From a bacterium (GTDB lineage Bacteria > Armatimonadota > JACIXR01): DNA of 37,025 nucleotides. This document shows, piece by piece, positions 2,517 through 22,712 of the stretch. Each line of letters starts with the position of its first letter. Position 1 is the stretch's first letter. The stretch is taken from the NCBI GenBank assembly GCA_014360465.1, contig JACIXQ010000019.1, positions 1 through 37,025 of the forward strand, read 5' to 3'. The notes beneath the pieces were generated by a model. The model did no database searches. It saw nothing but the letters and a program-made list of their open reading frames with translations, and was not told the DNA's origin. The translations under genes and the position numbers were made by a program.

Positions 2517-2520
2517 AGCA

Positions 2521-3030: not shown

Positions 3031-3056
3031 AGCTTGAACCTCCTTTTTGATCATTT

Positions 3057-4973: not shown

Positions 4974-5006
4974 ATCTCAAATACTCAACCTCCTTTTTGT
5001 ATATTT

Positions 5007-5270
5007 TTAGCCTCCTGCAATAGGGAGAAGAATAAATAATTCGTCTCCGTCATTTAGTTCCCCATCAAAATCCTCAACATTCTCCTCATTTCGCAATACT
5101 ATTACATTGTCCCTTATCTCTCCATTCTCATCCAATAGAAACATAGCTCCCTCCTCATTTAAACTCGCTATTTCCTTTATCGCCTCCCTTACTGTCTTTG
5201 GAGAGGAGAGAAAGAGCTGTTTGCCCAGCACATCCGACAACCTCCCGGTCAAGGTAACCTTTACTGCCAT
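5007..5270 (-). CDS. MoaD/ThiS/TtuB-like sulfur-carrier protein
   Basis: An 87-residue ubiquitin-fold sulfur carrier. It has the expected length, begins MAVKVTLTGRLSDVLGK, has the DGELNDGDELFILLPIAGG tail pattern, and ends in the obligatory Gly-Gly that is adenylated and converted to a thiocarboxylate. The LPIAGG end is more like MoaD than like classical ThiS. The ribosome binding site is AAAGGAGG nine bases before ATG 5270. The gene is four bases downstream of the ThiF/MoeB-like E1, the usual E1-carrier pair. With the TtuA-like enzyme and thi4 in the same operon it could serve tRNA thiolation, thiazole or molybdopterin synthesis, or all of them, as TtuB/TtuC do in Thermus. Which pathway it serves cannot be told from sequence. 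Confidence 0.85.
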   Translation of the reverse strand: MAVKVTLTGRLSDVLGKQLFLSSPKTVREAIKEIASLNEEGAMFLLDENGEIRDNVIVLRNEENVEDFDGELNDGDELFILLPIAGG

Positions 5271-5274
5271 AATA

Positions 5275-6012: not shown

Positions 6013-6013
6013 C

Positions 6014-6814
6014 TTATTCCTCCTTTTGGGGATTTAAGCTTCCCATCCTATAACCTTCCAAATCAACGGTCACAAATCTGAAACCTATCCTTGAAAACTC
6101 GCGGGCAATTTCTTCCCTCTTCTCCCAAACTTTATCCATCTCCTCCTTCGGCACCTCAATCCTCGCTAACTCCCCATCCGAATGGCACCTCACCCTCACA
6201 TCTTTTACTCCAAGTGATTTTATGAACTTCTCCCCTTCTTCAATCATTCCGAGTTTTTCCCTCGTTAGCCTTTCTCCAAAGGGAATACGCGTAGCGAGAC
6301 AGGGCGAAGAAGGCTTATTCCAGATAATAAGCCCGAGTTCCTTCGCCAGCTCCCTTACCTCCCTCTTACCCATCCCGACCTCGGCAAAAGGGCTCCTCAC
6401 CCCTAACTCTTCCTTCGCTCGCAAGCCAGGACGATAATCCGTGTAATCGTCGGCATTCGTCCCATCAATAAGAAAATTTATTCCCTTTTCCCTTGCTTTT
6501 TCCCAGAGCCTTGAATGTGTCAGCCTCTTGCAGATATAACATCTCTCAGGAGGATTATCAAGGAGGGGAGAAATGTCCACTTCTATTATCACCTGTTCAG
6601 CTCCGAGTTCAGCACATAATTCCTTCGCTTCCTCAAATTCATCTTTTGGCAAAAGTAGGGACTTTATCGTTCCAGCAACCACATTTTCCTTCCCCAATGT
6701 CTTGATAGCCATAGCCAGAAGAGTGGAGCTATCCACTCCCCCAGAAAAAGCCACCATCACCTTCTCCATATCCCTTATGATTTGTTCCAATTTAGATTTT
6801 GCGGAATCAACCAT
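6014..6814 (-). CDS. larE: LarE-family ATP-dependent sulfur transferase
   Basis: A 266-residue PP-loop protein of the LarE family. LarE adenylates the carboxylates of a pyridinium substrate and inserts sulfur, in lactate racemase maturation, to build the nickel-pincer cofactor. SGGVDSS (24-30) is the P-loop. GTNADDYTDYRPG (118-130) and WNKPSSPCLATRIPFG (165-180) are family signatures. C172 corresponds to the cysteine that is sacrificed in Lactobacillus LarE. CYIC (92-95) adds two more cysteines, as in LarE types that hold a [4Fe-4S] cluster and are catalytic. The ribosome binding site AAGGTGAT precedes ATG 6814. It opens the minus-strand operon, with a -10 TATAAT upstream. LarB and LarC are not in the window, so its partner could instead be the thiazole or tRNA system here (inference). 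Confidence 0.85.
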   Translation of the reverse strand: MVDSAKSKLEQIIRDMEKVMVAFSGGVDSSTLLAMAIKTLGKENVVAGTIKSLLLPKDEFEEAKELCAELGAEQVIIEVDISPLLDNPPERCYICKRLTHSRLWEKAREKGINFLIDGTNADDYTDYRPGLRAKEELGVRSPFAEVGMGKREVRELAKELGLIIWNKPSSPCLATRIPFGERLTREKLGMIEEGEKFIKSLGVKDVRVRCHSDGELARIEVPKEEMDKVWEKREEIAREFSRIGFRFVTVDLEGYRMGSLNPQKEE

Positions 6815-7900: not shown

Positions 7901-7906
7901 CTATCC
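7866..7906 (-). terminator. Possible terminator after the methyltransferase operon
   Basis: On the minus strand GGATAG-6-CTATCC overlaps the stop codon, followed by AAAAGC-CT-GCTTTTTATAG. Both stems are short and AT-leaning and the T run has five bases, so this is only a weak intrinsic-terminator candidate. Confidence 0.3.
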
Positions 7907-9655
7907 ACTATGTTTGAACATTTGCCTTATTTCCCTCCAACTCTTGCCAGATAAGGCAGCCTCGGCAATCATGGGAGCTCTCCTCGCTTCTCCTCCATAA
8001 ATCCCCAAGGGGAAAGTGTCGCAGAATTCCTCATTAACTGCTCCGCCCCCACACGCGAAGGGAACCTCTATCCCTTCATCTACTAATTTTTGGGCAATCC
8101 GAGGAAAAGCAGACATAGTCGTGGTCATTAATGCAGAACCACCAAGCAAAATCGGTTTATGTAGCTTTACTGCCTTAATTACCTCTTCGTCATCAACATC
8201 TACACCGAGGTCTATCACTTCAAAACCAGCAGCTGAAAGAAGCGCCTTCACGATATTTTTCCCAATGGTATGGATATCACCCTTAGCCACGAAGAGCACC
8301 ACTTTGCCTTTCCTCTTTAGTTTGCCTCCCATCTTCTCCTCACACAATTTTAACCCTTCCATTAAGGCATCGGCGGAGAGCATAACTTGGGGCAAAAAGT
8401 AATATCCTTCTTCCCACAGCTTCCCAACCTCCTCCATTGCCTTAACCAAACCATTCTCCATTACCTCCTCTGGTGATGCTCTGAGAAGTGCCTCCATAGT
8501 TGCCCGCTTACATTCTTCCTTATTACCCTTCAGTACAGCTTCCCTTATTTCGGGGAATGGAGAGGCTTCCGCAATGCCAATTCTTTCCTTTTCTTTTTCA
8601 ACCACTCCGTAAAGTTTGAATGGATATACATTGATTAAACTCCTTCTTTCCATTCTTGTCGGCTTTGCTTTGTGCGCCTCATCCACCATAGATTTCAAGT
8701 TAGAAAGGGGAGCCTTTAGAGGGATTGCACAACCAGGGGCAACTATATCTATACCTTCACGGATAGCTTTTCTTGTCGCTTCTCTTACCCTCTCCTCATC
8801 TCCCTGGAGAAGCACCTGAGAGGGATTTATATTCCCTATCAGTGCTGTTCTCCCTTGAGTTAACCCTTTAATCTTAAGAAGGTCCGTCTTATCGTCTATG
8901 CTTAGTGCATCTGCTCCAGTCTGTGTCATATACTCTACTATTGGAGTGGCGTTCCCGCATATATGGAGAATGGAAGGAAGGGAGATAGAGCTTAGCAATT
9001 CTCTATGATAAGGAAACACAAAGTCCTTATACATCATAGGGCTTATAATATCAGTTGAAGCGGCCATATCCTCAACGCATATTATATCTGCTCCTGCTTC
9101 CTCAACGGCTTTTGCGAGTCTTTTTGCACCCTCCGTAGCGATTTCCATATAGGGATGTATATCATCGGGAGAACTTGCCATCTGCATTAGAAGATTGGTA
9201 AGTCCAACAAGAGACCCCGTAATCGAGAAGGGACCGACAATACCAACAATCAAAGGCACTTCTTTGAGCTCATTTTTGATTATTTTTATTGCTTCCAACA
9301 GCACGGGAATCCTCCCTTTTTGTAGAAAATCCTCTGGAAACTTTGGGACATTTCCTATCACATAGGGATGCGAGACAACAACGGGAATGTTATCGCCCGG
9401 CAAAAATACCTCACAACCGAATGCTTCAGCCTCTATAGTTTGGCAAAAAGGAATACGGACAGCGTCAAAGCCAACGAGCTTATGCCCTGCCATAGCAAGG
9501 GTTGCCATCTTTTCGGGGTCTTTGTGGGCCTCTGGGAAATAAACCCCAACGGCATTCATCTGTTCAAATGTAGGGGTTGGATTAGCTGAAAGGCAAGGAT
9601 AAAATTCTTTTCTTTCTTTTAAAAGCGCTGAAATTACCGTTTTCATTAAAAACAT
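7901..9655 (-). CDS. MtaA-MtaC fusion: UroD-fold methyltransferase plus corrinoid protein (CmuA-like)
   Basis: A 584-residue two-domain methyl-transfer protein. Residues 1 to about 335 are a uroporphyrinogen-decarboxylase-fold methyltransferase of the MtaA/CmuA group. Its zinc site is seen as H231-x-C233 (HICGN) and C309 (APGCAIPLKAP). After a short linker (about 336-365), residues 366-584 form a corrinoid protein: a helical cap, then the B12 Rossmann domain with the D460-x-H462-x-x-G465 motif (GDIHTIGKN) whose His ligates cobalt, and later GGSALM and GGG. In methanogens MtaA and MtaC are separate proteins. The same fusion order is known in CmuA of chloromethane degraders. It lies 17 bases downstream of mtaB, so the natural methyl source is probably methanol. 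The methyl acceptor (thiol or folate) is unknown. The ribosome binding site AGGAGG precedes ATG 9655. Confidence 0.85.
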   Translation of the reverse strand: MFLMKTVISALLKERKEFYPCLSANPTPTFEQMNAVGVYFPEAHKDPEKMATLAMAGHKLVGFDAVRIPFCQTIEAEAFGCEVFLPGDNIPVVVSHPYVIGNVPKFPEDFLQKGRIPVLLEAIKIIKNELKEVPLIVGIVGPFSITGSLVGLTNLLMQMASSPDDIHPYMEIATEGAKRLAKAVEEAGADIICVEDMAASTDIISPMMYKDFVFPYHRELLSSISLPSILHICGNATPIVEYMTQTGADALSIDDKTDLLKIKGLTQGRTALIGNINPSQVLLQGDEERVREATRKAIREGIDIVAPGCAIPLKAPLSNLKSMVDEAHKAKPTRMERRSLINVYPFKLYGVVEKEKERIGIAEASPFPEIREAVLKGNKEECKRATMEALLRASPEEVMENGLVKAMEEVGKLWEEGYYFLPQVMLSADALMEGLKLCEEKMGGKLKRKGKVVLFVAKGDIHTIGKNIVKALLSAAGFEVIDLGVDVDDEEVIKAVKLHKPILLGGSALMTTTMSAFPRIAQKLVDEGIEVPFACGGGAVNEEFCDTFPLGIYGGEARRAPMIAEAALSGKSWREIRQMFKHSG

Positions 9656-9672
9656 TTTTAAACTACCTCCTC

Positions 9673-11043
9673 TTAAAGCTGATATGATGAGGGAAGGAAA
9701 TCCTCGACAAGCTCTCTATATTTTGCTTTACCCCATTCAATAAATTTCTCCTCCTCTTCGGGAAGTCCCTCCAATACAGCAAGCGCCTCATTTAAAGCAT
9801 CTATTTCCATCGGGGGTAATTTCATATTACCGTCTCTTAACTCCCTTTTTATTAATTCTCCTGCCTTTAGAGCTGCCTTTTTAGCCCTCAAATAATATCC
9901 CCGATTTTCCACAATGACTTTGCCCAGCTCCCAGGCGATATCTGGCGAAATGACGAAAGCCTGTGGGTCACGATATTTATCAGAGGTAATTAGCAGGTCT
10001 CTGAGACATTCAGCGGTTCCGGAAGCAAGCGCTGTGTTCATTAGAGAGACATCGTAACCCAATATCTCGGTAAAGACCGCTGCCGAGGAACCGCCGAACA
10101 TCTCCCTATATTCCACAGCTTCGTTACTCCATAGGTCGCAAACCGCAGCTGATAGGTTTCCCATAAGGTCCATATGGGCGCAGGCAGAAGTTTTACCCTC
10201 CATTGAAATAGGAACTCCTGAAATTGCCTTTATAATTGGATTTTCATATCCACAATCCTTTAATGGTCCCCTCGCTCCCCTCTCAACTGCTACAAGGGAA
10301 CGTGCTGCGCCCATCGCTCTTATCAAAGCAGCGACCGTGTGTGGGAAATCGCCTCCTATCATCCCACCTGCTAACATCATAGCTGTATTGGCGTGAGCAC
10401 AATCTGTATCACCTCCAGGAACGCAATTATGTCGCTCCGCTATTTGAACAATGTTATCCCAGAGAAACTCCATATCCCTGCTTCCCAAAACAGCAATCGC
10501 GAAAAGGACCCCGGGAATGTCTTGTCGTGTGATGGCATAATTGAATACTTCCTTACCACCTATGGATTCAATGGAAAGGATATCAGCGCCTTCCTTTGCA
10601 CATCGCTCAAATGCTTGGAAAACGAGCTCGGTCTCTTTACTATTACGAAGACTTTTCTCGCTTTTTCTTATATCTGCAATTGTCGCTCTTAAAGCACATT
10701 TCACACCATACCTTTCGTTGAATCTTGACAATATTTCCTTTGACTGATTTATGACCGCTCCTCCCCACTCGGGATTTAGAGTTAGTTGGGCTACATGCTC
10801 TATCTCAACCATAATAGATGGAAAGCCCAACTTTATCGCCCTCTCCAGTGAATCATTCACAATATTTTTGTATTCTTCAAGTAGGGTATCCAAATTTTCC
10901 TCCTTTCCTGGGCGCGGATGAACTTTTATTTCGGGGATTACCTCCCCATTGCCAATTTCTAACCCAAAACCACAATTTATAGGGCGCTTTGCTATACCGA
11001 AAAGCATTTCTTGCCAGTCATTATAAGCTATATGATTACTCAT
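9673..11043 (-). CDS. mtaB: Methanol:corrinoid methyltransferase MtaB
   Basis: A 456-residue protein with the MtaB signatures FGIAKRPINCGFGLEIG near the start and GGDTDCAHANTAMMLAGG (210-227). The three zinc ligands known in Methanosarcina barkeri MtaB (Glu164, Cys220, Cys269) are present as E159, C215 and C264, all with the same offset of five, so it should be catalytically competent. MtaB activates methanol and methylates the cobalt of the corrinoid protein MtaC; here the corrinoid domain is in the fusion protein encoded next. ATG 11043 follows AAGGAGGAG. A strong promoter lies immediately upstream. No corrinoid reductive activator gene (RamA-like) is seen in the window. Confidence 0.92.
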   Translation of the reverse strand: MSNHIAYNDWQEMLFGIAKRPINCGFGLEIGNGEVIPEIKVHPRPGKEENLDTLLEEYKNIVNDSLERAIKLGFPSIMVEIEHVAQLTLNPEWGGAVINQSKEILSRFNERYGVKCALRATIADIRKSEKSLRNSKETELVFQAFERCAKEGADILSIESIGGKEVFNYAITRQDIPGVLFAIAVLGSRDMEFLWDNIVQIAERHNCVPGGDTDCAHANTAMMLAGGMIGGDFPHTVAALIRAMGAARSLVAVERGARGPLKDCGYENPIIKAISGVPISMEGKTSACAHMDLMGNLSAAVCDLWSNEAVEYREMFGGSSAAVFTEILGYDVSLMNTALASGTAECLRDLLITSDKYRDPQAFVISPDIAWELGKVIVENRGYYLRAKKAALKAGELIKRELRDGNMKLPPMEIDALNEALAVLEGLPEEEEKFIEWGKAKYRELVEDFLPSSYQL

Positions 11044-11254: not shown

Positions 11255-11989
11255 TTAAAAGGCAATATTTTGAAATATCTCTTGCGCGCAGAATAGCCGC
11301 GCTACTTCGGGATTGGCCGGGTTTCTGAAAACCTCATAGGGTGCCCCTATTTGGGCAACTCTACCTCCAATGTAAACGACCACTTTATCAGCAAGAGTGA
11401 AAGTCTCAAATATGTCGTGGGTAACGAGGACAATAGGGATATTGAACCTTTCCTTTACCTCCCTCAAAAGCTTCATAATTTCCATCTTTATCGGGCTGTC
11501 AAGGGCACTGAGCGGTTCATCCAATAAGAGGGCTTTTGGTTCCCTCATTAAGACCGTAGCCAAAGCAACCCTTCGCTTCTGTCCACCCGATATTTGGGAA
11601 GGAAACCTATTTTCCAGTCCTTCTAAATGGAATTCCTTTATCATTCTTCTTATTCTTTCCTCCCTCTCCCTCTTGCTAAGGTGTTTACCTCCATAAGCTA
11701 TGTTCTTCCAGACTGGCATATGAGGGAAAAGGGTATGGTTTTGGAAAACATAGCCGAGTTGTCTTTTCTGTGGGGGAAGGTCTATTCCCCTCTTGCTATC
11801 AAACAGGACATCTCCATTGAGATAAACATAACCTTCATCCGCCTTGAGTAGTCCGGCAATGATTTGCAAGGACATAGATTTACCCGCACCAGAATAGCCG
11901 AAAAGGACGACAAACTCATTGTTAGCTTCCCATTCCACATCAAGCGAAAAACCCGGGACATTTTTCACCAATTTAACGGATAAGCTCAT
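11255..11989 (-). CDS. modC: Molybdate/tungstate ABC transporter ATP-binding protein ModC
   Basis: A 244-residue ABC ATPase. GYSGAGKS (31-38) is Walker A, and the Q-loop is in VFQNHTLFPHM. ISGGQKRRVALA is the signature, LLLDEPLSALD is Walker B with the D-loop, and VTHD is the switch His. It energises oxyanion uptake through ModB. At 244 residues it lacks the C-terminal Mop/TOBE domain that full ModC proteins (about 350 residues) use to bind molybdate, so feedback control by bound oxyanion is probably absent; it resembles the short WtpC/ModC type. Its ATG overlaps the modB stop by four bases (ATGA), so translation is coupled. It closes the modABC operon. Confidence 0.88.
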   Translation of the reverse strand: MSLSVKLVKNVPGFSLDVEWEANNEFVVLFGYSGAGKSMSLQIIAGLLKADEGYVYLNGDVLFDSKRGIDLPPQKRQLGYVFQNHTLFPHMPVWKNIAYGGKHLSKREREERIRRMIKEFHLEGLENRFPSQISGGQKRRVALATVLMREPKALLLDEPLSALDSPIKMEIMKLLREVKERFNIPIVLVTHDIFETFTLADKVVVYIGGRVAQIGAPYEVFRNPANPEVARLFCAQEIFQNIAF

Positions 11990-12654
11990 CGTAAAGACCC
12001 CCTTCCCAATTTATTAGCAAGATAGAGGCAAACTCCTGAAATTAGCGTGAACATTCCAGCCATTATGTGCGCTTTTGTATATTCACCGCTTGTCATTGCA
12101 GTGTAGATAGCCAAGGGCATAGTATTCGTCCTTCCGGGAATATTCCCAGCGAACATAAGTGTAGCGCCGAATTCGCCCAGCGCACGAGCGAAGGCAAGGA
12201 CTGTGGCAGCGACTATTCCCTTGCCGGCAAGGGGAATGACAACTTTTAGTGCTGTCTCCCATTCTGAATGTCCCAGTGTGTAGGAAGCGTTTATGATATT
12301 CTTATCCACGGATTCAAAAGCTGCTTTAGTCGTCTTAATCATAATGGGAAGAGCGACGAAGAATGAAGCAAAAACTGCAGCATACCAAGTGAACATAATG
12401 CTTATCCCAGTCGCTTCATAAAGGGGCTTCCCCAAGAGCCCGTTTCTCCCCAAGATTACCACGAGATAATATCCAGTCACCGTGGGAGGCAAAACAAGGG
12501 GAAGGGTAAGAAAGGTGTCTACCACATCCTTCCCTTTGAAACTTTTCATAGCCAGAATATAGGCAACGAAGATACCCACAGGCAAAAGGAAAAGAGTAGC
12601 TATTACTGCTACTTGAAAGGAAAGTCTTAGAGAAAACAACAGCGAACTATCCAT
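11986..12654 (-). CDS. modB: Molybdate/tungstate ABC transporter permease ModB
   Basis: A 222-residue inner-membrane permease with five or six hydrophobic helices starting near residue 10 (SFQVAVIATLFLLPVGIFVA). It has the ModB/CysT-type cytoplasmic EAA loop around INASYTLGHSEWETALKVVIPLAGKGIVAA and the following ALGEFGATLMFAGNIPGRTNTMPLAIY, which is highly typical of ModB. It forms the channel for oxyanion delivered by ModA. It overlaps modA by eight bases and modC by four, indicating one transcript. Molybdate, tungstate or both could be the substrate; sequence does not decide. Confidence 0.9.
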   Translation of the reverse strand: MDSSLLFSLRLSFQVAVIATLFLLPVGIFVAYILAMKSFKGKDVVDTFLTLPLVLPPTVTGYYLVVILGRNGLLGKPLYEATGISIMFTWYAAVFASFFVALPIMIKTTKAAFESVDKNIINASYTLGHSEWETALKVVIPLAGKGIVAATVLAFARALGEFGATLMFAGNIPGRTNTMPLAIYTAMTSGEYTKAHIMAGMFTLISGVCLYLANKLGRGSLR

Positions 12655-13438
12655 TTTTCTTTTTCGCTGGTTCTACAGGCATAAAGCCATATTTGCTAAA
12701 TATTTTCTTGCCTGTTGGGGATAAAACTAAGGCTACGAATTCTTTAGCCAATTGCGGCTCCCTTGTCTTTGCTACTACTGCTATTGGGTAAAGCGGGCGG
12801 GTATAACTTCCATTTGGCGCCTCGGCGACGATTTTCACCTCTTTCGGTCTTAGCAGTGCATCCGTTCTGAACACGATTCCCGCATCTACCTCTTTTCTCG
12901 CCACATAATCAAGAACTTGCCGAACATCTTCTCCATAAACTATCTTGCCCTGGAGAGATTCCCAGAGTTTTTGATACTTCAGCGTCTCCTCGCCATACTG
13001 ACCACTTGGAACGGTCTTAGGATTACCCATTGCGAACCTTTGCACAGCAGGGGTCTTCAAATCGGCAAATGAGCTAAGCTTCGACCCTATGGGGGCAATC
13101 AAAACAATCACATTCTCAACAAAATTATGTCGCGTCCCCTTCATAACCAAGCCCTTTTTCTCCAACAAATCCATATCCTTCTGCCCTGCTGAAGCAAAAA
13201 CATCCACAGGCGCTCCAGCTTCTATTTGAAGCCTCAGAGCTCCACTCCCTCCAAAGTTGAACAACACCTTTACACCTTTGTGCTTCTTCATAAATATCTT
13301 CCCTATTTCCTGAAAGCTATCCTTGAGGCTGGCAGCTGCGGAGACCACGAGCTCCTTTTCCTTCGCAAGAGAACTACTACTAACCGCCAAAAGAATCAAC
13401 AAACTTAAAAAGAAAAACCTTCCATAACCCTTTTTCAT
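12647..13438 (-). CDS. modA: Molybdate/tungstate periplasmic binding protein ModA
   Basis: A 263-residue substrate-binding protein with a signal peptide (about 1-26, FFFLSLLILLAVSSSSLA). The typical ModA start of the mature chain follows: VVSAAASLKDSFQEIGKIF, then FNFGGSGALRLQIEAGAPVDVFASA, which holds the oxyanion-binding serines. The end GKKIFSKYGFMP is also standard. There is no lipobox, so in a diderm cell it would be free in the periplasm. The ribosome binding site is GGAGGTGA before ATG 13438, and a good promoter lies upstream. ModABC would supply molybdenum or tungsten to oxidoreductases such as formate dehydrogenase or aldehyde oxidoreductase, none of which are in the window. Confidence 0.9.
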   Translation of the reverse strand: MKKGYGRFFFLSLLILLAVSSSSLAKEKELVVSAAASLKDSFQEIGKIFMKKHKGVKVLFNFGGSGALRLQIEAGAPVDVFASAGQKDMDLLEKKGLVMKGTRHNFVENVIVLIAPIGSKLSSFADLKTPAVQRFAMGNPKTVPSGQYGEETLKYQKLWESLQGKIVYGEDVRQVLDYVARKEVDAGIVFRTDALLRPKEVKIVAEAPNGSYTRPLYPIAVVAKTREPQLAKEFVALVLSPTGKKIFSKYGFMPVEPAKKKNG

Positions 13439-13669: not shown

Positions 13670-14428
13670 TTATTGCCCTACATCTTTACCAATCTTTCCA
13701 CAAACGGGACAATCGGGCTTCCGTTTGACCTTTGTCTTTTTCATTTCCCAACTTTTTGTATCTATGTAGAGCATATACCCATCCAAAGTGCTTCCAATTC
13801 CCGTGATAAATTTCACCACCTCTGTCGCTGCAATACAACCCATCATCGCGCTTACGGAGCCGAGCACGGGAAAAGGGATTGACCATTTAGGCGGAGAAGG
13901 GAAAAGGCAGGCTAAACAAGGGGTTTGTCCCGGTTTTATGAAAGTTATATATCCCTCCATCCCATACATAGCCACCTCCACCAGGGGTTTTCCAAGCTCT
14001 ACGGAGGCTTTGTTCAAATTGAACCTTTCCTCAAATGTAGGGGGACAAGCAATGGATATATCAACCTGGGAAACCACCTCTTTTGTCAATGCCTCATCCA
14101 TAGCGATATCATCTCCATAAGCAACGAGTTCCATAAAGGGGTTCAGCGCTTTCAGTCTTTCAACTATACAATTTATTCTGGGTCTTCCAATTGCCTCGTA
14201 AGACATCAGCAATTGGCGATTTAGATTGGAGGGCTCCACGACACCTCCATGGGCAACAACCAACTTACCGATACCCGCTAAGGCAAGATATACAGCCACC
14301 GGTCCTCCCAATCCCCCTACTCTGGTGACAAAAGCGCTTGCTTCCTTCAGTTTTCTCTGCCCCTCCTCGCCGAAAATCATTATCTGTCTTCTGAATCTGA
14401 CCTTTTCCTCTGCTGTTAATTCTATCAT
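13670..14428 (-). CDS. Degenerate ThiF/MoeB-family protein lacking ATP-site residues
   Basis: A 252-residue E1-family protein, similar along its length to the canonical copy at 5275-6012, but altered at the adenylation site. The glycine loop reads VTRVGGLGGP: R36 replaces a conserved Gly. The IDCD motif reads AHGG, so both Asp are lost (H60, G62). The conserved Lys is R84. DCLDN reads ACPPT (127-131), which removes the Mg/ATP aspartates. Retained are RFRRQ (11-15), SNLNRQ (67-72), the zinc cysteines C171/C174 and C240/C243, and C198. The frame is intact and long, so it looks functional rather than decayed. It probably binds a carrier or delivers sulfur without adenylating (inference). It is 43 bases downstream of the Rrf2 gene and divergent from the cysK-HcyBio operon, which suggests a job in sulfide assimilation. 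Confidence 0.8.
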   Translation of the reverse strand: MIELTAEEKVRFRRQIMIFGEEGQRKLKEASAFVTRVGGLGGPVAVYLALAGIGKLVVAHGGVVEPSNLNRQLLMSYEAIGRPRINCIVERLKALNPFMELVAYGDDIAMDEALTKEVVSQVDISIACPPTFEERFNLNKASVELGKPLVEVAMYGMEGYITFIKPGQTPCLACLFPSPPKWSIPFPVLGSVSAMMGCIAATEVVKFITGIGSTLDGYMLYIDTKSWEMKKTKVKRKPDCPVCGKIGKDVGQ

Positions 14429-14471: not shown

Positions 14472-14939
14472 TCAAATTACATATGGATAGGAATGGGGTG
14501 GCGTATCCTTGGGCAGAATTGCTCTTGCTTCCTTGAGAACATCCTCAAGGGTTAACGAGGAAAGGAAATCAGCAATGCTCTGCCCCAATCTTTGCCACAT
14601 TATCCTCGCTGCGCAATAAGGAACTCTATGGCAATGCTTCTCCCCATCGGGCTCCAAGCATCTCACAAGATGCACCTTTCCCTGCATAGCCATCACAACA
14701 TCCATTATTGTTATTTGGGATGGTTCCTTTGATAGCTTAAAACCACCCTCAGGTCCCCTGTTGCTATCAACCAAACCACCCATCCTGAGCCTTCGGAGGA
14801 TTTGCTCGGCATAATCCACGGATATCTCCTGCTCCTTGGCTATAACATTAGCCGATATGTATCCCGCCTGCCAACGCGTAGCGAGACCGAGCATTATCCT
14901 AACTGCATATCTGACCATCGTGTTCAGTCTGACCGGCAA
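14472..14939 (-). CDS. Rrf2-family transcriptional regulator with Cys triad
   Basis: A 155-residue Rrf2-family winged-helix DNA-binding protein. The helix-turn-helix covers about residues 28-62 (VIAKEQEISVDYAEQILRRL), followed by the wing GGLVDSNRGPEGGFKL. C94, C103 and C109 form the cysteine triad that binds an Fe-S cluster in IscR/NsrR/RsrR-type members; CymR, the cysteine-metabolism regulator, lacks it. Start TTG 14939 has GAGGTGATAGAAA before it, and a good promoter is seen. It is divergent from cysK, so it probably controls that operon and its own gene in response to Fe-S, sulfide or cysteine status (inference). Repeated ATTTCCTA elements in the divergent region are candidate sites. Confidence 0.88.
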   Translation of the reverse strand: MPVRLNTMVRYAVRIMLGLATRWQAGYISANVIAKEQEISVDYAEQILRRLRMGGLVDSNRGPEGGFKLSKEPSQITIMDVVMAMQGKVHLVRCLEPDGEKHCHRVPYCAARIMWQRLGQSIADFLSSLTLEDVLKEARAILPKDTPPHSYPYVI

Positions 14940-15031: not shown

Positions 15032-15124
15032 ATTTCCTACCCATTTTATTTCAGAAATTAATAAGATATTTTAACTCATAATTTTTAAATTTTATTTCCT
15101 AAAATATGTTGACTAATTTCCTAA
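15032..15124 (+). repeat. Direct repeats ATTTCCTA in the cysK-Rrf2 promoter region, candidate operator
   Basis: ATTTCCTAA occurs at 15094-15102 and 15116-15124, 22 bases apart (two helical turns). A partial copy ATTTCCTA occurs at 15032-15039, 62 bases from the first. The pair flanks the cysK -35, and the last copy lies inside the promoter spacer, where a bound protein would block RNA polymerase. Rrf2 is the obvious candidate binder (inference). Confidence 0.5.
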
Positions 15125-15136
15125 CTATGTTATTAT
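15109..15136 (+). promoter_or_regulatory. Promoter of the cysK operon
   Basis: TTGACT (15109-15114), 16-base spacer and TATTAT (15131-15136). An overlapping TATAAT at 15136-15141 has no fitting -35. Transcription would start near 15143, giving a leader of about 26 bases before the TTG start, just enough for the ribosome binding site AAAGGAGGCG. Confidence 0.6.
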
Positions 15137-15168
15137 ATAATCCAAACCAAAAAGGAGGCGGGTTCCTT

Positions 15169-16098
15169 TTGCGTATTGCCCAAGATATGACCGAACTTAT
15201 AGGAAGGACTCCCCTGGTTCGCCTGAGAAAAGTGACCGAGGGAGCGAAAGCAGATGTCGTTGCCAAGTTGGAGTTCTTCAATCCCTGCGGAAGCGTTAAG
15301 GACCGCATCGGTGTCTCTATGATAAAGGACGCTGAGGAGAAGGGGCTCCTCGCAAAGGATTCCGTCGTCATAGAGCCCAGCAGCGGTAACACTGCCATTG
15401 CCCTTGCCTGGGTCTGTGCCTCCCGTGGCTATAAGTTGATAATAACGATGCCAGACACGATGTCCCAAGAAAGGGTAAAAATATTAAAAGCCCTTGGAGC
15501 CGAGGTCATCCTCACTCCCGGCGAGCTGGGGATGAAAGGAGCGGTTGAGAAAGCATACGAGCTTGCCGATATTCTCCCTCGTTCCTTCATACCTGACCAG
15601 TTCGCTAACCCAGCCAACCCGAAAATTCATCGGGAAACGACAGCGAGGGAAATATGGGAGGATACCGATGGAAAGGTTGACATAGTCGTAGGCGGAATCG
15701 GAACAGGCGGCACCCTCACAGGAATCGGGGAATATATCAAGGGAGGTGGGTTGAAACCGGAATTGATAATCGTGGGGGTTGAGCCTGCAAATTCTCCTGT
15801 CCTCAGTGGAGGTTGCGCCGGTGCACACAAAATCCAGGGGATAGGGGCGGGATTCATCCCAAAAGTTCTGAATCTTGACTTCATAGACGAGATTATAACT
15901 GTGGAGGACGAAGATGCTTACGAGATGACAGCCCGCCTCGCCAAAGAGGAAGGCATCTTCTGCGGCATATCCTCGGGAGCGGCTTGCTACGCCGCTCTGG
16001 AAGTTGCTAAAAGGAAAGAGAATGAGGGAAAGTTGATAGTCGTCATTTTCCCCGACACGGGCGAGCGCTATCTTTCCGTGCCCGGACTTTTCGAATAG
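15169..16098 (+). CDS. cysK: Cysteine synthase (O-acetylserine/O-phosphoserine sulfhydrylase)
   Basis: A PLP enzyme that makes cysteine from an activated serine and sulfide. TTG 15169 is chosen as start because AAAGGAGG ends nine bases upstream and the resulting 309 residues is the usual CysK length; an open frame continues upstream to 15106 without a better start. [11 protein letters not shown] (about 33-43) has the PLP lysine, and [12 protein letters not shown] is the PLP-phosphate/substrate loop (the usual TSGNTG has changed to SSGNTA). [16 protein letters not shown] is the glycine-rich phosphate-binding loop, and PDTGERYLS is the typical end. It is the first gene of a sulfide-assimilation operon followed by HcyBio and NIL-ferredoxin. 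No serine acetyltransferase gene is present here, so O-phosphoserine or O-acetylserine made elsewhere must be the substrate. Confidence 0.93.
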
Positions 16099-16123: not shown

Positions 16124-17338
16124 TTGAGAGAACGAACGATTGAGGAGATAAACGAGAAGATAAAGAAAGGAACAGTCGTCGTTCTCACTGCGGAGGAAGT
16201 CATAGAGATGGCTAAGGAGGAGGGTTATGCAAAGGCAGCTGAGAAGGTGGATGTTGTAACCACTGGTACCTTTGGTCCTATGTGTTCCTCTGGCATCATA
16301 ATAAACTTTGGGCATCCCGTGCCCAGGATAAAGAAATCCCGCGTCTGGCTAAACGATGTGCCCGCATACGGAGGACTCGCCGCTGTGGATTTATACCTTG
16401 GAGCAACAGCCATACCCGAAAATGACCCAGCTAACACCAACTATCCAGGTGAATTCAAATATGGAGGAGGACATGTTATAGAGGACTTGGTTAGTGGTAA
16501 GGATATCCTTCTTTATGCAGAGGGTTATGGAACCGATTGCTATCCTCGTAAAGAACTAGAGACATATATCAATATCAATACGATAAACGAGGTAATCCTT
16601 TTCAATCCACGAAATTGCTATCAGAATTACAATGTTGCGGTAAATCTATCAAACAGAACGATATATACATATATGGGGGTCTTGAAACCCAATCTGGGGA
16701 ATGCCAATTACTGCTCGGCAGGTCAGTTAAGCCCTTTATTGAAAGACCCATTGTATGAAACCATTGGGGTGGGCACGCGGATATTCTTGGGTGGAGGCAT
16801 AGGTTATGTCGCCTGGTGGGGCACACAACACAGCCCCGCTGTTCCCCGCAACGAACTTGGAATTCCCAAAGTCCCAGCAGGAACACTCGCACTTATAGGC
16901 GACCTCAAGCAGATGAGCCCCAAATGGCTGAGAGGAGCGAGCATAAGGGGCTACGGTGTAAGCCTCGCTGTAGGAGTGGGCATTCCCATCCCCATACTCA
17001 ATGAGGAAATATTCCGCAGGGCATCGGCAAGCGATGAGGAAATAACCGCTCCCGTCGTTGATTACAGCGATGCTTATCCAAACAGAAAATCGGAAATTCT
17101 CGCCGAGGTCACCTACGCTCAGCTTAAAAGTGGCGAGATAGAAGTTTTGGGCAAAAAGGTCCCCACAGCTTCCCTCTCCAGCTACTACAAAGCAAAGGAA
17201 ATCGCCACCATTCTAAAAAACTGGATTAAGGAAGGCAAATTCCTTCTCACCAAGCCGGTTGAGCCCCTTCCGGGTCCGGAGAGCGGAATGAAGACGAAAC
17301 CCTGCGAGATAAGAAAGCCCTACACAGAGGAGCTATGA
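16124..17338 (+). CDS. HcyBio (DUF39) homocysteine biosynthesis protein
   Basis: A 404-residue protein of the DUF39/COG1900 family. In Methanosarcina (MA1821) and anaerobic bacteria this family is needed, with a NIL-ferredoxin, to make homocysteine from aspartate semialdehyde and sulfide-derived sulfur. Characteristic segments are TTGTFGPMCSSGIIINFGH (46-64) with C54, GYGTDCYPRK with C140, and FLGGGIGYVAWWGTQH. Conserved cysteines of the family are implicated in persulfide chemistry. Unlike several archaeal members there is no C-terminal CBS pair; the protein ends after KPCEIRKPYTEEL. Start TTG 16124 follows AAAAGGAGGCG. It is 25 bases after cysK and overlaps the next frame by four bases if the far start of that gene is used. 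Confidence 0.9.
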   Translation: MRERTIEEINEKIKKGTVVVLTAEEVIEMAKEEGYAKAAEKVDVVTTGTFGPMCSSGIIINFGHPVPRIKKSRVWLNDVPAYGGLAAVDLYLGATAIPENDPANTNYPGEFKYGGGHVIEDLVSGKDILLYAEGYGTDCYPRKELETYININTINEVILFNPRNCYQNYNVAVNLSNRTIYTYMGVLKPNLGNANYCSAGQLSPLLKDPLYETIGVGTRIFLGGGIGYVAWWGTQHSPAVPRNELGIPKVPAGTLALIGDLKQMSPKWLRGASIRGYGVSLAVGVGIPIPILNEEIFRRASASDEEITAPVVDYSDAYPNRKSEILAEVTYAQLKSGEIEVLGKKVPTASLSSYYKAKEIATILKNWIKEGKFLLTKPVEPLPGPESGMKTKPCEIRKPYTEEL

Positions 17339-17352
17339 AGGAGGTGATACGG

Positions 17353-17757
17353 ATGAAGGCAAGGCTCGTCCTGCGATTCCCTCCCCTACTGGTTGACCAA
17401 CCAGTAGTTTACAAGTTGATTAAGGATTACAATCTCGTCTTTAACATCTTACGAGCCGACATAACCCCCGATAGCGAGGGATTGATGGTTCTGGAAATCG
17501 AGGGAGACGAGAACGATTTCAAACAAGGATTGGAATATCTTGAAAAAAGGGGAGTAAAAGTTCAGCCACTCAGCCAGGATGTCGTTATGATAGAGGAGCT
17601 CTGCACCCACTGCGGCGCCTGCGTGGTCCATTGCCCTACGGGTGCGCTTTATTATGATGAAGAAAGAAGGGTCCTCTTCGCATCCGAAAAATGCGTCGCC
17701 TGTGAAATTTGTGTGGAAATCTGCCCATACAGAGCGATGGAGGTAAGATTGGAGTAA
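17353..17757 (+). CDS. NIL-domain ferredoxin, partner of HcyBio
   Basis: ATG 17353 is preferred over a frame starting at 17335, because a near-perfect AAGGAGGTGATACGG precedes it; this gives 134 residues. Residues 1-75 form a NIL domain (ARLVLRFPPLLVDQPVVYKL, GLMVLEIEGDENDF), the ligand-binding fold found after MetN ATPases. Residues about 83-134 are a two-cluster ferredoxin: CTHCGACVVHCP and CVACEICVEICP, eight cysteines for two [4Fe-4S] clusters. This is the architecture of MA1822, which acts with the DUF39 protein in homocysteine synthesis by supplying electrons for reductive sulfur transfer. It ends the cysK operon. Confidence 0.9.
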   Translation: MKARLVLRFPPLLVDQPVVYKLIKDYNLVFNILRADITPDSEGLMVLEIEGDENDFKQGLEYLEKRGVKVQPLSQDVVMIEELCTHCGACVVHCPTGALYYDEERRVLFASEKCVACEICVEICPYRAMEVRLE

Positions 17758-18006: not shown

Positions 18007-18516
18007 ATGAACGAGAAGGCGCTTACCTTGATAAGCTATGGATTATATGTTATTAGCACGAAGGTGGGAGAAAAATTGAATGGACAGATTGCCGATGCGT
18101 TATGTCAAGTGGCGAGCGAACCGCAACTGCTTGCCCTCAGTAGCAATAAGAAGAATCTCACCCACGATATGATAAAAGAAAGCAAGAAATTCAGCGTGGC
18201 AATCCTGGAGAAGGATACTCCCCTCACCTATATAGGTAGGTTCGGCTTCCGCAGTGGCAGAGAAACGGAAAAATTTGAAGGAATTAACTACTTCTTTGCT
18301 GAGAATGGTTTACCCATCCCTACAGATTATGCACTCGCCTATATTGAGTGCGAGGTTATTAATGAAGTTGATGTCGGCAGTCACACCCTCTTCATCGCAA
18401 AGATTTTATCTGCCGAGGTTCTTAAAGAGGGAGAACCAATGACCTATGCTTACTACCGAGAGGTCAAAAATTGGAAAGTGCCAGAAACGGCACCCACCTA
18501 TCATAAAACTGGCTGA
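18007..18516 (+). CDS. Flavin reductase-like FMN-binding protein (rubredoxin reductase type)
   Basis: A 169-residue flavin reductase-like split-barrel protein. YGLYVISTKVGEKLNGQIADALCQVASEP (residues 12-40) is the typical FMN/NAD(P)H-binding start, with KKFSVAILEKDTPLTYIGRFGFRSGRETEKF in the middle. It matches the flavin reductase half of the high-molecular-weight rubredoxin (Hrb) of Moorella, where NADH electrons pass through FMN to rubredoxin and on to a flavodiiron NO/O2 reductase. Here the rubredoxin is a separate gene 13 bases downstream. ATG 18007 follows AAGGAGGTTTCAG. Confidence 0.85.
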   Translation: MNEKALTLISYGLYVISTKVGEKLNGQIADALCQVASEPQLLALSSNKKNLTHDMIKESKKFSVAILEKDTPLTYIGRFGFRSGRETEKFEGINYFFAENGLPIPTDYALAYIECEVINEVDVGSHTLFIAKILSAEVLKEGEPMTYAYYREVKNWKVPETAPTYHKTG

Positions 18517-18529
18517 GGAGGTATGAAAA

Positions 18530-18691
18530 ATGAAAAAATATGTCTGCTCGGTATGTGGATATGTTTATGACCCTGAAGTCGGCGACCCCGATTCAGGCGT
18601 GGCTCCTGGCACACCCTTTGAGGAACTTCCCGAGGGCTGGGTGTGCCCTGTCTGTGGTGCGGATAAATCCGCCTTTGAACTCGTGCAATAG
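18530..18691 (+). CDS. Rubredoxin
   Basis: A 53-residue rubredoxin, the one-electron carrier with an FeS4 centre. [10 protein letters not shown] (6-15) and [11 protein letters not shown] (39-49) give the two C-x-x-C-G iron ligands. [21 protein letters not shown] is the canonical middle. GAGGAGGT precedes ATG 18530. It sits between its probable reductase (flavin reductase) and electron users Hcp and the flavodiiron protein in one operon. The ends are certain because the whole length is standard for the family. Confidence 0.96.
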
Positions 18692-18706
18692 AAGGAGGTA
18701 ACTTCT

Positions 18707-20014
18707 ATGTCCGAGACATTTGAGATGTTTTGCTATCAATGCTCTCAAGCAGCGGGAGGAATAGCCTGCACCAAGCGGGGAGTTTGCGGTAAGGTTCCCA
18801 CCGTTAGCCGCTTGCAGGACAATCTGATATTCGCCCTCAAAGGGATGACGGCTTACCTCTATCATGCGAGGGAGCTTGGCTATACCGACCCCGAGATAGA
18901 TGCTTTTTTGGAGAAAGCCTTCTACACTACCTTTACGAATGTCAACTTTGACGCTGAAGCATTCGTCAACTACGCCCTAAAAACTGGCGAGATGAATATA
19001 AGAACTATGAAGCTGTTGAAAAAAGCCCACATTGAAACATTCGGAGAACCCGTTCCAACGAAAGTTGAAACCGGCACGAAGAAAGGTAAGGCTATCATCG
19101 CAACGGGACATAGCCTTAAGGCATTGTATGAACTTCTGCGCCAAACGGAGGGAATGGATATAAACATTTATACCCATTCGGAGCTCCTGCCCGCCCATGG
19201 TTACCCCGGTCTTAAAAAGTTCCCTCATCTCGTCGGCAACCTTGGTAAAGCATGGTTCGACCAACGCCAGCTTTTCGCCCGCTATCCTGCTGCTATTCTG
19301 GGAACCTCTAATTGCCTTCTCATCCCTACCGATGCATACAAAGATAGGATGTTCACCACAGGTCCCACTGGTCTTCCAGCTGTTCAACACATAGATGGTT
19401 ATGATTTCTCCCCTTTAATAGAGAAGGCGAAGGAACTTCCTGAGTTAGAAGAAGAAAAGAGCGATATCGTCCTCACCACGGGCTTCTCTAAATCCGTCAT
19501 CCTTTCCCTTGCGGAGAAGATAAAGCAGTTGGTAGAGGAAGGTAGGATAAGGCATTTCTTCCTGGTTGGTGGTTGCGATTCACCTATGAAGAGGGCGGAG
19601 TATTATAGGGAATTCGTCCAGAAGCTACCTGACGATACCGTCGTCCTTACCCTTGCTTGCGGAAAATTCCGCTTTAATGACCTGCCCCTTGGAGAGATAG
19701 ATGGCATTCCGCGCCTCCTCGACCTCGGGCAATGCAACGACGCCATAGTCGCAATAGAGCTTGCCGAAGCTCTTTCACAGCTCTTTGGCGTGGGCATAAA
19801 CGAGCTTCCCCTTTCCCTCGTCCTCTCCTGGATGGAACAGAAAGCCGTAGCGATACTCTGGAGCTTGCTGTCCCTCGGCATAAAGGGAATCATCATCGGA
19901 CCAGTCCTTCCCGCTTGGGTGAATGAGGATATACTTAAGGTTCTCCAGGAAGGCTATGGTTTGAGGCTGATTCGCGAGCCGGAGGAGGATATCAGGGATT
20001 TGCTCAAAACATAG
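18707..20014 (+). CDS. hcp: Hybrid cluster protein (hydroxylamine/NO reductase), class III-like
   Basis: A 435-residue Hcp. The N-terminal cluster motif is C9-x2-C12-x8-C21-x5-C27 ([20 protein letters not shown]). Later residues for the hybrid Fe-S-O cluster occur in [48 protein letters not shown] and [16 protein letters not shown]. The length is shorter than the roughly 550 residues of class I and II because the helical insert after the first cluster is reduced, as in the class III proteins of thermophiles and archaea. The enzyme reduces NO or hydroxylamine; electrons probably come from the rubredoxin just upstream. ATG 18707 follows GAAGGAGGTAAC. Confidence 0.94.
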
Positions 20015-20028
20015 GAGGTGATTCCTAA

Positions 20029-21210
20029 TTGCCCATTAAGGAAATCCGCGAGAACATCTACTATGTCGGTGCCATAGATTGGGATAGGAGATTATTCGAT
20101 TCCCTTATCCCCCTTCCCGACGGCACAAGCTACAACGCCTATCTCATAAAGGGAAGCGAGAAGGTAGCCCTCATAGATACCGTTGACCCTTCAAAAGAGG
20201 GAGAGCTCGTTGATAATTTGAAAGCTCTTGAGATAGAAAGGATTGACTACATAGTAGCCAATCACGGTGAGCAGGACCATTCGGGAACGATTCCTACCGT
20301 TCTTGAACTCTACCCAATGGCGAAGGTCGTTTGCACTCCGAAAGCGAGAGAAATACTCGCTGATTTGCTCCTTCTGAAAGAAGAGGTTTTCCAAACTGTC
20401 GAGGACGGTGCAGAGCTTTCCTTGGGAGATAAGACGCTGAAATTCGTCCACGCTCCCTGGGTTCACTGGCCAGAAACTATGCTCACCTTCCTCAAAGAGG
20501 AGGAAATCCTCTTCCCTTGTGACCTCTTCGGCTCACACCTTGCAACCAGCAACCTTTATGCAGAGAACAAGGAAGAGGTATATCCAGCCGCCAAGCGATA
20601 CTATGCTGAGATAATGATGCCATTCCGCAACCTCATTAAGGGACATTTGAAGAAAGTCAAGGAACTAAACCCAAAGCTTATAGCTCCCAGCCATGGTCCC
20701 ATTTACTCTGAGCCAGAATTCATAATATCCACCTACGAGGACTGGATATCAGATGATGTTAAGAACGAAGCTGTCATAGCCCATATCTCTATGCATGGCT
20801 CAACAGAAGTTATGACCAGGCACTTCATAAACTCTCTGATGAAAAGAGGCGTCGGAGTGAAGGTTTTCGAGCTGACGAAATCGGATATCGGAGCTATTGC
20901 GATGGCACTTGTTGATTCCGCAACCCTCGTCCTCGCAACACCTACGGTTCTTGGTGGTCCTCATCCCCTCGCCCTCTCCGCCGCCTATCTCGTTTCTGCC
21001 CTACGCCCCAAGCTGAGGTTCGTCGGTTTGCTCGGCTCTTACAGCTGGGGAGGTCGCGCCGCCGAGAGGATAAAGGAGATACTTGGGAATTTGAATGTGG
21101 AAGTTCTACAACCCGTTCTGGCAAAGGGTTATCCTAAAGAAGAGGATTTCAAAGCCCTTGACAACCTCGCCGATGAGATTGCGAAAAGGCATAAGGAGTT
21201 TGCGAAATGA
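20029..21210 (+). CDS. fprA: Flavodiiron protein (A-type flavoprotein, O2/NO reductase)
   Basis: A 393-residue flavodiiron protein that reduces O2 to water or NO to N2O with rubredoxin electrons. The metallo-beta-lactamase domain (1 to about 240) has a complete di-iron ligand set: H79-x-E81-x-D83, H146, D165 and H222. The flavodoxin domain (about 247-390) follows, starting ISMHGSTEVMTRHF and with ATPTVLGGPHP and GSYSWGGRA FMN loops. TTG 20029 is the start, behind ATAGGAGGTGATTCC. It is 14 bases after hcp and overlaps the next gene by four bases, so all are one operon with rubredoxin and its reductase. Confidence 0.94.
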   Translation: MPIKEIRENIYYVGAIDWDRRLFDSLIPLPDGTSYNAYLIKGSEKVALIDTVDPSKEGELVDNLKALEIERIDYIVANHGEQDHSGTIPTVLELYPMAKVVCTPKAREILADLLLLKEEVFQTVEDGAELSLGDKTLKFVHAPWVHWPETMLTFLKEEEILFPCDLFGSHLATSNLYAENKEEVYPAAKRYYAEIMMPFRNLIKGHLKKVKELNPKLIAPSHGPIYSEPEFIISTYEDWISDDVKNEAVIAHISMHGSTEVMTRHFINSLMKRGVGVKVFELTKSDIGAIAMALVDSATLVLATPTVLGGPHPLALSAAYLVSALRPKLRFVGLLGSYSWGGRAAERIKEILGNLNVEVLQPVLAKGYPKEEDFKALDNLADEIAKRHKEFAK

Positions 21211-21710
21211 AAGCTCTGATAATCAGCGCCGATAATTTTGAGGATTCTGAACTTCTCCAACCCTACCAATATCTTAAGGAACTTGGACTGGAGGTTGATA
21301 TAGCCTCCCTTAAAAAGGGAAATATCGTCGGTAAAAAGGGAACAATCGTTGAAGCAAACCTTAGCCTTGAAGATGTCAATCCTGCAGACTACGACCTGCT
21401 CGTTTTACCCGGTGGAAAGGCACCAGCGGTTCTCAGGCATAATGAAAAGGTCAAAGAAATAGTAAGGCATTTTATCTCGCACAACAAACCAATAGCAGCG
21501 ATCTGCCATGGTCCCCAAATCCTCATCTCGGCTGGCGTTATTGAAGGGAGACGAGCTACCGGCTATCGCACGGTTCAGAGCGAACTTCGTTCGGCACGTG
21601 CCATCGTTGAGGATAAAGAGGTGGTTGTTGATGGGAACCTCGTGACTTCCCGCCAACCCTCCGATATACCTGCATTCTTGCGGGAAATAGGCAAGTTGAT
21701 AAAAAAATGA
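21207..21710 (+). CDS. DJ-1/PfpI family protein
   Basis: A 167-residue DJ-1/PfpI superfamily protein. E12 (ADNFEDSE), the nucleophile-elbow C100 with H101 (AAICHGPQIL) and the strand VLPGGKAP are the family's active-site features. Members act as stress-related glyoxalase/deglycase, chaperone or (PfpI) peptidase; sequence alone does not decide. Its ATG overlaps the stop of fprA (ATGA), and its own stop overlaps the ATG of the following membrane microprotein, so expression is tied to the oxidative/nitrosative-stress operon. It is probably cytoplasmic and may repair damaged metabolites or proteins under that stress (inference). Confidence 0.88.
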   Translation: MKALIISADNFEDSELLQPYQYLKELGLEVDIASLKKGNIVGKKGTIVEANLSLEDVNPADYDLLVLPGGKAPAVLRHNEKVKEIVRHFISHNKPIAAICHGPQILISAGVIEGRRATGYRTVQSELRSARAIVEDKEVVVDGNLVTSRQPSDIPAFLREIGKLIKK

Positions 21711-21856
21711 GGAAATCGCTCTTCCGCTCGCTCTGGTTCATCCTTTTAGTAATAGCGCTTTCTATCGTTGTGTTCGGAGCCAAAAGGGGAGAATGGAAGA
21801 AGATAAAAACGAATGCCGAGTACATCTGCACATCCTGTATAGGACTTGGTAAGTAG
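21707..21856 (+). CDS. CXXC-motif membrane microprotein (CD1871A-like)
   Basis: A 49-residue protein starting at ATG 21707, overlapping the previous stop. A basic start (MRKSLFRSL) is followed by one membrane helix (about 9-24) and a short extracytoplasmic tail with YICTSCIGLG, giving C-x-x-C at 41-44. This layout (one helix, terminal C-x-x-C-I-G-x-G) matches the small CD1871A-type CXXC family that I recall next to membrane 4Fe-4S proteins in clostridia, exactly the context here. Its stop lies inside the start of the next gene. Likely role: a redox or metal partner of the polyferredoxin (inference). Confidence 0.75.
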   Translation: MRKSLFRSLWFILLVIALSIVVFGAKRGEWKKIKTNAEYICTSCIGLGK

Positions 21857-22712
21857 AAGGGTTCAATCTTATCAAAACAAGATAGCGAAGCTCAGAGCAT
21901 TCTCCCAAACCCTTGGGCTTGTCCTAACCAATCTCTATTATCTCCATCTCCGATGGCTTCCTTTCCCCGTTATGAACTGCTATGCCTGCCCATTAGCAAC
22001 CTTTGCCTGCCCCATAGGCTCGCTCCAGTTCGCTATCGGTGCGGGCGGTTTCTTTCCCTTTTACCTTTTAGGGATAATCCTTTTTTCAGGGCTTCTTTTT
22101 GGCAGGATAACTTGCGGCTGGCTCTGTCCCTTCGGCTTCATACAGGACTTGCTCTACAAAATCCCCTTGAAAAAGAAGTTTCGCTTACCTGCTTTTGTTT
22201 CCTATGGCAAATATCTATTCCTTCTGGTATTCGTCTTATTTCTGCCCATCCTTCTTCACGACCCTATCTTCTGCAAGATATGCCCAGTGGGAACTATGGA
22301 GGCAGGTATTCCCTGGCCAATATTAGAGCCAAGCTTCCGCGCCCTCCTTGGCTGGCTTTACGCCCTCAAACTCACCATCCTTGTCGGCATAGTCATCCTC
22401 GCCATCTTCACCCCACGCCCCTTCTGCAAAGGGATGTGTCCACTTGGCGCCCTCCTATCCTTCTTCAACCGCTTCAGCTTCCTGCGAGTCCAAGTGAAAG
22501 AAGAAGCTTGTAAGAAATGTGCCCTTTGTGCCGAACCCTGTCCCCAAGGCTTGATGATTTACGAGGATGAAGGACATCCTGATTGCATAGGCTGTATGGA
22601 GTGCAAAGTCTGCCCCGCTGTGGAAATGAAAGCGGGAATCCCCGACCGTTTGCTTGGCGGTAAGAAACAATCCAAGACCGAAAGGATATCCGATATCCAA
22701 CCCAAGCTATGA
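21846..22712 (+). CDS. Membrane polyferredoxin (NapH/CcoG/YccM-like 4Fe-4S protein)
   Basis: A 288-residue integral membrane iron-sulfur protein. Hydrophobic helices lie at about 65-90, 118-138 and 165-188. They are separated by loops with CYACPLATFACP (45-56), CGWLCPFG, CKICPVG and CKGMCPLGA, the repeated C-x-x-x-C-P motif of NapH/NosR/YccM-type electron-transfer proteins. A C-terminal ferredoxin segment has CKKCALCAEPCP and CIGCMECKVCP. It probably moves electrons across the membrane to a periplasmic or exported reductase, with the microprotein encoded just before it. Start TTG 21846 overlaps that gene by 11 bases, and no strong ribosome binding site is visible, so translation is likely coupled. 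It ends the stress operon. Confidence 0.85.
   Translation: MVSRRVQSYQNKIAKLRAFSQTLGLVLTNLYYLHLRWLPFPVMNCYACPLATFACPIGSLQFAIGAGGFFPFYLLGIILFSGLLFGRITCGWLCPFGFIQDLLYKIPLKKKFRLPAFVSYGKYLFLLVFVLFLPILLHDPIFCKICPVGTMEAGIPWPILEPSFRALLGWLYALKLTILVGIVILAIFTPRPFCKGMCPLGALLSFFNRFSFLRVQVKEEACKKCALCAEPCPQGLMIYEDEGHPDCIGCMECKVCPAVEMKAGIPDRLLGGKKQSKTERISDIQPKL

Follow-up and report, generated by a model that had tools for sequence, protein, structure and literature searches.

The window analyzed here, a 37,025-nucleotide stretch of DNA from a bacterium of the phylum Armatimonadota, encodes a homologue of ThiF and MoeB, designated pseudo-E1, in which the residues that bind Mg-ATP have been replaced. Genes for a putative molybdate-type importer follow it on the same strand, a regulator gene precedes it, and a divergent run of three genes lies beyond the regulator. 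A sulfur-carrier gene and an intact E1 paralogue are also present in the window. The features are as follows.

13670-14428, minus strand: pseudo-E1, a HesA-clade ThiF/MoeB homologue without Mg-ATP residues, 252 amino acids
14039-14323, minus strand: codons of the rebuilt nucleotide pocket (R36, 14321-14323; H60, 14249-14251; G62, 14243-14245; R84, 14177-14179; P130, 14039-14041)
13700-13918, minus strand: stretch with the zinc cysteines C171, C174, C240 and C243, invariant in all pseudo-E1, HesA and intact E1 rows
12647-13438, minus strand: ModA-type substrate-binding protein, downstream of pseudo-E1 (TIGR01256 modA, 210 bits, cut-off 62.5; ModA/ModB occur beside relatives)
11986-12654, minus strand: ModB-type permease, assigned from sequence (matches permeases beside relatives at about 25-45% identity)
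11255-11989, minus strand: short ModC-type ATPase, 244 amino acids, assigned from sequence (matches beside relatives)
14472-14939, minus strand: Rrf2-family regulator, 43 bp upstream of pseudo-E1 (PF02082, 1e-35; TTG start as called)
15106-16098, plus strand: cysK, divergent
16124-17338, plus strand: HcyBio (DUF39), divergent
17335-17757, plus strand: NIL-ferredoxin, divergent
5007-5270, minus strand: ThiS/MoaD-like carrier ending in PIAGG (PF02597, 1e-8; carriers occur beside many relatives)
5275-6012, minus strand: intact E1 paralogue adjoining the carrier; besides this protein and pseudo-E1, the genome yielded no further ThiF protein

An E1 fold without Mg-ATP residues

The pseudo-E1 frame is intact, and its product belongs to the ThiF family over its full length (Pfam, 1.8e-51). 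Alignment with Escherichia coli MoeB and the intact paralogue places R36 at MoeB G38, H60 at D62, G62 at D64, R84 at K86, A127 at D127, and P130 at D130. Retained are R14, the SNLNRQ motif with R71 (R73 of MoeB), and the cysteines at 171, 174, 240, and 243. The alignment thus bears out the sequence-only reading that the Mg-ATP residues had been lost from an intact frame with the zinc cysteines and SNLNRQ kept. Two of its details need qualification. Both Asp residues of the DCLDN motif are indeed replaced in the window (A127 and P130), but A127 is special to this protein and a few others and is not a family trait, as D127, the first Asp of the motif, is kept in 35 of 42 relatives. Likewise, the Lys and a Rossmann-loop Gly have changed as described (to R84 and R36), but Arg is a mild substitute for Lys, and of the loop glycines the first alone is replaced.

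The AlphaFold2 model has an ordinary E1 fold (mean pLDDT, 94.2; pTM, 0.92), and the nearest structures are ThiF (1zud) and MoeB (1jw9), with TM-scores of 0.88 to 0.90 by query length. Pseudo-E1 resembles both in fold (TM-score of about 0.89), zinc cysteines, R14 and R73 equivalents, and a ThiS/MoaD-like carrier nearby. It differs from them in its Mg-ATP residues and falls far under the NCBIfam equivalog cut-offs, with 133 bits against 377 for moeB and 134 against 275 for thiF. Pfam, alignment, and model together support a protein that has shed Mg-ATP residues while keeping its fold, zinc site, and carrier-type surroundings, much as first proposed.

MoeB residues G41, R73, K86, and D130 are the counterparts of UBA1 adenylation-site residues, and changing the UBA1 Asp that matches D130 weakens Mg-ATP affinity, with similar effects in other E1s and MoeB (PMC12355090). 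Judged from its residues, the absence of Mg-ATP chemistry from pseudo-E1 is strongly supported.

A pocket signature in two phyla and its kinship with HesA

A survey of 291 genomes of the window's phylum found related proteins in the window and 21 other genomes (22 in all), at about 41 to 58% identity and with the same substitutions. When a profile of these pseudo-E1s was run over 392 Planctomycetota genomes, the scores formed two separate groups, with 52 genomes at 273 to 354 bits and none of the rest above 248. All 24 sequences read from these 52 carry the signature R36, H60, G62, R84, P130, and E134, in place of the G, D, D, K, D, and T of intact E1s. The signature is therefore present in 46 bacteria of two phyla, and among homologues the substitutions are neither sporadic nor context-free, a pattern that supports the sequence-only reading of a pseudo-E1. 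In an archaeal phylum (120 genomes), the five top-scoring matches were all intact E1s (GDDKD) without the signature.

Column by column, 42 pseudo-E1s (22 from the window's phylum and 20 from Planctomycetota) were compared with 19 intact E1s. R36, G62, R84, P130, and E134 occur in 42/42 pseudo-E1s and H60 in 41/42, the sole departure being D60 in one member (L021/L059); G36, D60, D62, K84, and D130, in pseudo-E1 numbering, occur in 19/19 intact E1s. Columns were taken as discriminating if at least 85% of the 42 pseudo-E1s share one residue and the 19 intact E1s predominantly (at least 60%) have another. Eight columns qualify, comprising the six signature positions plus M75 and S193, and five of the six signature columns align with the nucleotide/Mg region of MoeB.

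HesA of nitrogen-fixation clusters is known from cyanobacteria, Paenibacillus, and Frankia, and to our knowledge this protein has been without a known function for decades. In a tree of 63 proteins, a branch with 100/99 support separates all 44 pseudo-E1 and HesA rows from the 19 intact E1s, the order within the clade being unsettled. The best plasmid matches of the window protein are cyanobacterial, with HesA at 43 to 45% identity. The two HesA sequences compared, both cyanobacterial, also lack D62, D64, K86, and D130 and have G62, R84, and E134 in common with pseudo-E1; in contrast, they keep the Rossmann G36 and have R60 and H130, whereas the pseudo-E1 clade has R36, H60, and P130. HesA thus attains a similar pocket charge through other residues (R60, R84, and H130). 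A limited search of open papers found none stating that HesA lacks catalytic residues.

Genomic setting both joins and separates the two. The nif cluster of Pseudanabaena has nifW on one side of hesA and an IscA-type gene on the other, and modA and modB lie downstream; in Nostoc, a HesA copy adjoins molybdate transport genes. Whereas HesA sits in nitrogen-fixation clusters, the genomes tested lack nitrogenase-type genes: PF00148 was found in 0 of 12 genomes, the window's included, and NifB above cut-off in 0 of 25. Deletion of hesA in Paenibacillus nearly abolishes nitrogenase while leaving nitrate reductase unaffected, and the mutant is partly rescued by high molybdate or cystine and not restored by E. 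coli moeB, a phenotype known for nif HesA only (PMC6361004). In Leptolyngbya, loss of HesA is mild, with 34% nitrogenase activity and normal growth (PMC6428710). The best reading of the window protein, from its sequence relationships, is a HesA-clade E1 that would not adenylate and that acts outside nitrogen fixation.

Importer, carrier, and desulfurase genes beside pseudo-E1

The conserved context of pseudo-E1 consists of ModABC-type transporters and a ThiS/MoaD-like carrier, with a desulfurase in part of the window's phylum. Of the 21 loci from that phylum, 12 have a ModA-like or ModB-like gene in the flanks retrieved, 7 a NifS/IscS/SufS-type cysteine desulfurase, and 6 a ChrA-type transporter; in Planctomycetota, ModA-like and ModB-like genes are both present in 12 of 20 loci, and most loci have a ThiS/MoaD-like carrier ending in GG directly beside pseudo-E1. 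These counts are rough, as some contigs are short and genes in GC-rich loci were called by a simple script.

Twenty intact-E1 loci from the window's phylum served as controls. ModB occurs in the flanks of 22 of 41 pseudo-E1 loci against 0 of 20 controls (Fisher, 1.2e-5), and within the window's phylum alone in 10 of 21 against 0 of 20 (P = 4.8e-4), values that overstate independence because the loci are related. ModA alone is a weaker marker, being found also in 4 of the 20 controls. No importer lies nearby in L042 to L045, L047, L052, and L060. As to identity, the window ModA passes the modA cut-off, and ModA and ModB of L055 pass theirs; the Planctomycetota ModA-like proteins differ in being tandem double domains, and molybdate is their putative ligand. 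Neither pseudo-E1 nor an orthologue of ModA is present in two genus mates of the window's bacterium (G206 and G207).

The carrier at 5007-5270 lies 8 kb from pseudo-E1, beside the intact E1, and is likely the relevant carrier in this genome. With a molybdate-type ABC transporter and a ThiS/MoaD-like carrier as conserved partners, the functional theme is oxyanion and sulfur, not sulfide delivery to HcyBio, and the sequence-only interpretation is partly supported. The sequence-only reading had linked pseudo-E1 to the adjacent Rrf2, cysK, HcyBio, and NIL-ferredoxin genes and had looked to DUF39 genes beside homologues; none of these four has a match in any of the 40 relative loci, HcyBio included (0/40).

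Several further observations concern these loci. In six of them (L051, L053, L055, L057, L059, and L060), the carrier near pseudo-E1 ends in Gly-Ala (PPVAGA or PPIAGA), not Gly-Gly, and five of the six also have an intact E1 adjoining the carrier. In family f23 of the window's phylum (L042 to L045 and L047), pseudo-E1 lies beside an uncharacterized protein of 300 to 340 amino acids, with no importer; in the same genomes, ModA-like genes lie near the intact E1 (L128, L129, L131, and L132). Near planctomycete pseudo-E1s, proteins at L120 1552-2544, L124 5276-6478, and L125 7081-8280 have a signal-like start, a motif resembling AC-x-x-PV-x-x-YAL-x-x-W, and no Pfam match, and FtsX/MacB-type exporter genes occur nearby in L108, L124, and L125. 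A link to the SAO transporter, by way of an ArsP-type permease and thioredoxin-like proteins, was set aside, as these occur in few loci and no paper on it was found among the open papers searched.

Within the window, no RNA element or Moco riboswitch was found. By eye, positions 172-6814 (minus strand) hold TtuA-like PP-loop, Thi4-like, TonB receptor, carrier, intact E1, and LarE-like genes in one run, a second sulfur-transfer cluster, and the minus strand downstream of modC (7901-11043) encodes proteins that resemble corrinoid methyltransferases. Genes for a flavin reductase-like protein, a hybrid-cluster protein, a flavorubredoxin-like protein, PfpI, and a NapH-like ferredoxin stand in a row at 18007-22712 (plus strand), perhaps a nitrosative or oxidative stress set.

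A candidate oxyanion pocket and competing explanations

The window genome, at 97.8% completeness, lacks moaC, MoeA, and any nitrogenase-type protein, as well as any NifB over cut-off, and the same holds for five others (G249, G253, G254, G256, and G257), absences that rest on draft genomes. In most of those five, the importer, carrier, and pseudo-E1 genes lie together. A route through Moco was rejected for these six genomes, which have neither moaC nor moeA; 22 of 24 Planctomycetota hosts do have moaC, so independence from Moco does not extend to pseudo-E1 hosts at large. The single PF00384 match of the window genome, a 568-amino-acid protein, was not accepted as proof of a molybdoenzyme, its neighbors being hydrogenase-type by eye. 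Separately, L079 3181-3729 of the window genome (minus strand; G000:C101) encodes a NifX/orange-protein-like domain, matched by the C-terminal part of the nifB model, which is a possible acceptor of a Mo cluster.

The acids lost from pseudo-E1 are those that bind Mg and ribose, and basic residues in the pocket have been gained or kept. In E1 structures, a sulfate occupies the gamma-phosphate site, held by two Arg residues of which one corresponds to MoeB R73, and the same arrangement is seen in MoeB-MoaD-AMP (PMC12355090). From the loss of acids, the Arg and His gained or kept, this sulfate, and the importer context, we infer that the pocket may bind molybdate, and that pseudo-E1 probably works without ATP, linking the handling of molybdate to that of sulfur. 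The specific proposal, which we hold tentatively and at somewhat short of an even chance, is a non-adenylating HesA-clade E1 whose ATP pocket has become an oxyanion (molybdate) pocket that meets a sulfur carrier.

In place of the ATP phosphates, the pocket would hold a tetrahedral oxyanion on its own, supplied by the importer and most likely molybdate (or tungstate). The intact E1 and a cysteine desulfurase would convert the carrier to its thiocarboxylate form, which would then dock on pseudo-E1 as MoaD does on MoeB. In MoeB, the carrier tail attacks ATP; here it would meet the metal oxyanion at the site where ATP would have been and either pass its sulfur to the oxyanion or hand both to an acceptor. 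In favor of this proposal we count a signature that is fixed in two phyla and falls mainly at the ATP site, the ModB context, the adjacent carriers, the desulfurases, the kinship with HesA and its phenotype, and the joint lack of pseudo-E1 and ModA in the two genus mates. Against it count the importer-less loci, the distance of the window carrier, the hosts without a known Mo pathway, the mild Leptolyngbya phenotype, and the invariant E134, which adds an acid near the site. In the six hosts without a known Mo cofactor pathway, a molybdate role therefore needs an unrecognized acceptor.

Among the alternatives, a sensor is unlikely, though it is the one with most to recommend it. Pseudo-E1 would bind loaded or unloaded carrier, or an oxyanion, and tune either the importer or a regulator, the neighboring Rrf2 for instance; the earlier suggestion of a sensor of sulfur-carrier loading belongs here. 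The closeness of the Rrf2 gene in the window and the importer genes adjoining pseudo-E1 in many loci fit such a role, but the Rrf2 match recurs beside no relative, and HesA phenotypes point to Mo and S delivery.

Slightly more unlikely than a sensor is the non-catalytic half of a bacterial heterodimeric E1, pairing with an intact E1 and supplying Arg14 in trans, as APPBP1 and SAE1 do. Like the inactive eukaryotic halves (APPBP1, SAE1, and the UBA1 IAD), pseudo-E1 would combine an E1 fold with no adenylation, and the trans Arg is invariant in the window's phylum (22/22); an intact E1 adjoins carrier and pseudo-E1 in L051, L055, L057, and L060 and lies a few genes off in L053, all five loci being from the window's phylum. 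Unlike those halves, pseudo-E1 has an adjacent intact E1 in a minority of loci, and a purely structural partner would need no fixed new pocket residues. Because Arg14 has become Trp in 19 of 20 Planctomycetota, such help appears unlikely there.

Slightly less probable again is a protein that remains an enzyme, with a nucleotide or some other phosphate compound as substrate and no D130 to coordinate Mg. R71 is kept, the change to R84 is conservative, and fold and carrier context remain, but every member has lost the equivalents of D62, D64, and D130, except for the single D60, and changing the UBA1 Asp that matches D130 lowers Mg-ATP affinity (PMC12355090). The role suggested earlier, in which pseudo-E1 would help CysK, HcyBio, and NIL-ferredoxin to deliver sulfide or persulfide, has little going for it: the head-to-head arrangement is confined to the window, and elsewhere those genes give way to importer and carrier. 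A degenerating E1 copy without function, suggested by the missing catalytic residues, is ruled out by replacements fixed in two phyla, at about 40 to 58% overall identity and in mostly intact frames, one signature being common to the 22 window-phylum genomes and the 24 Planctomycetota sequences.

We return to the pocket that would bind molybdate. A bolder form of it, which we regard as improbable and put forward as speculation, is an E1-fold family that has traded ATP for a metal oxyanion, such that the thiocarboxylate attacks molybdate or tungstate, not the alpha-phosphate of ATP, yielding thiomolybdate for a cofactor other than molybdopterin and FeMo-co. If true, such a cofactor would be used in genomes, the window's included, that have neither pathway. 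The six genomes flagged here seemingly import molybdate and have no known use for it. More broadly, the HesA sequences read here lack E1 catalytic residues, and HesA belongs to a broader clade in which an alternative pocket has become fixed and which is found near molybdate-type importers and sulfur carriers where there is no nitrogenase, which offers a testable idea for how molybdenum and sulfur come together.
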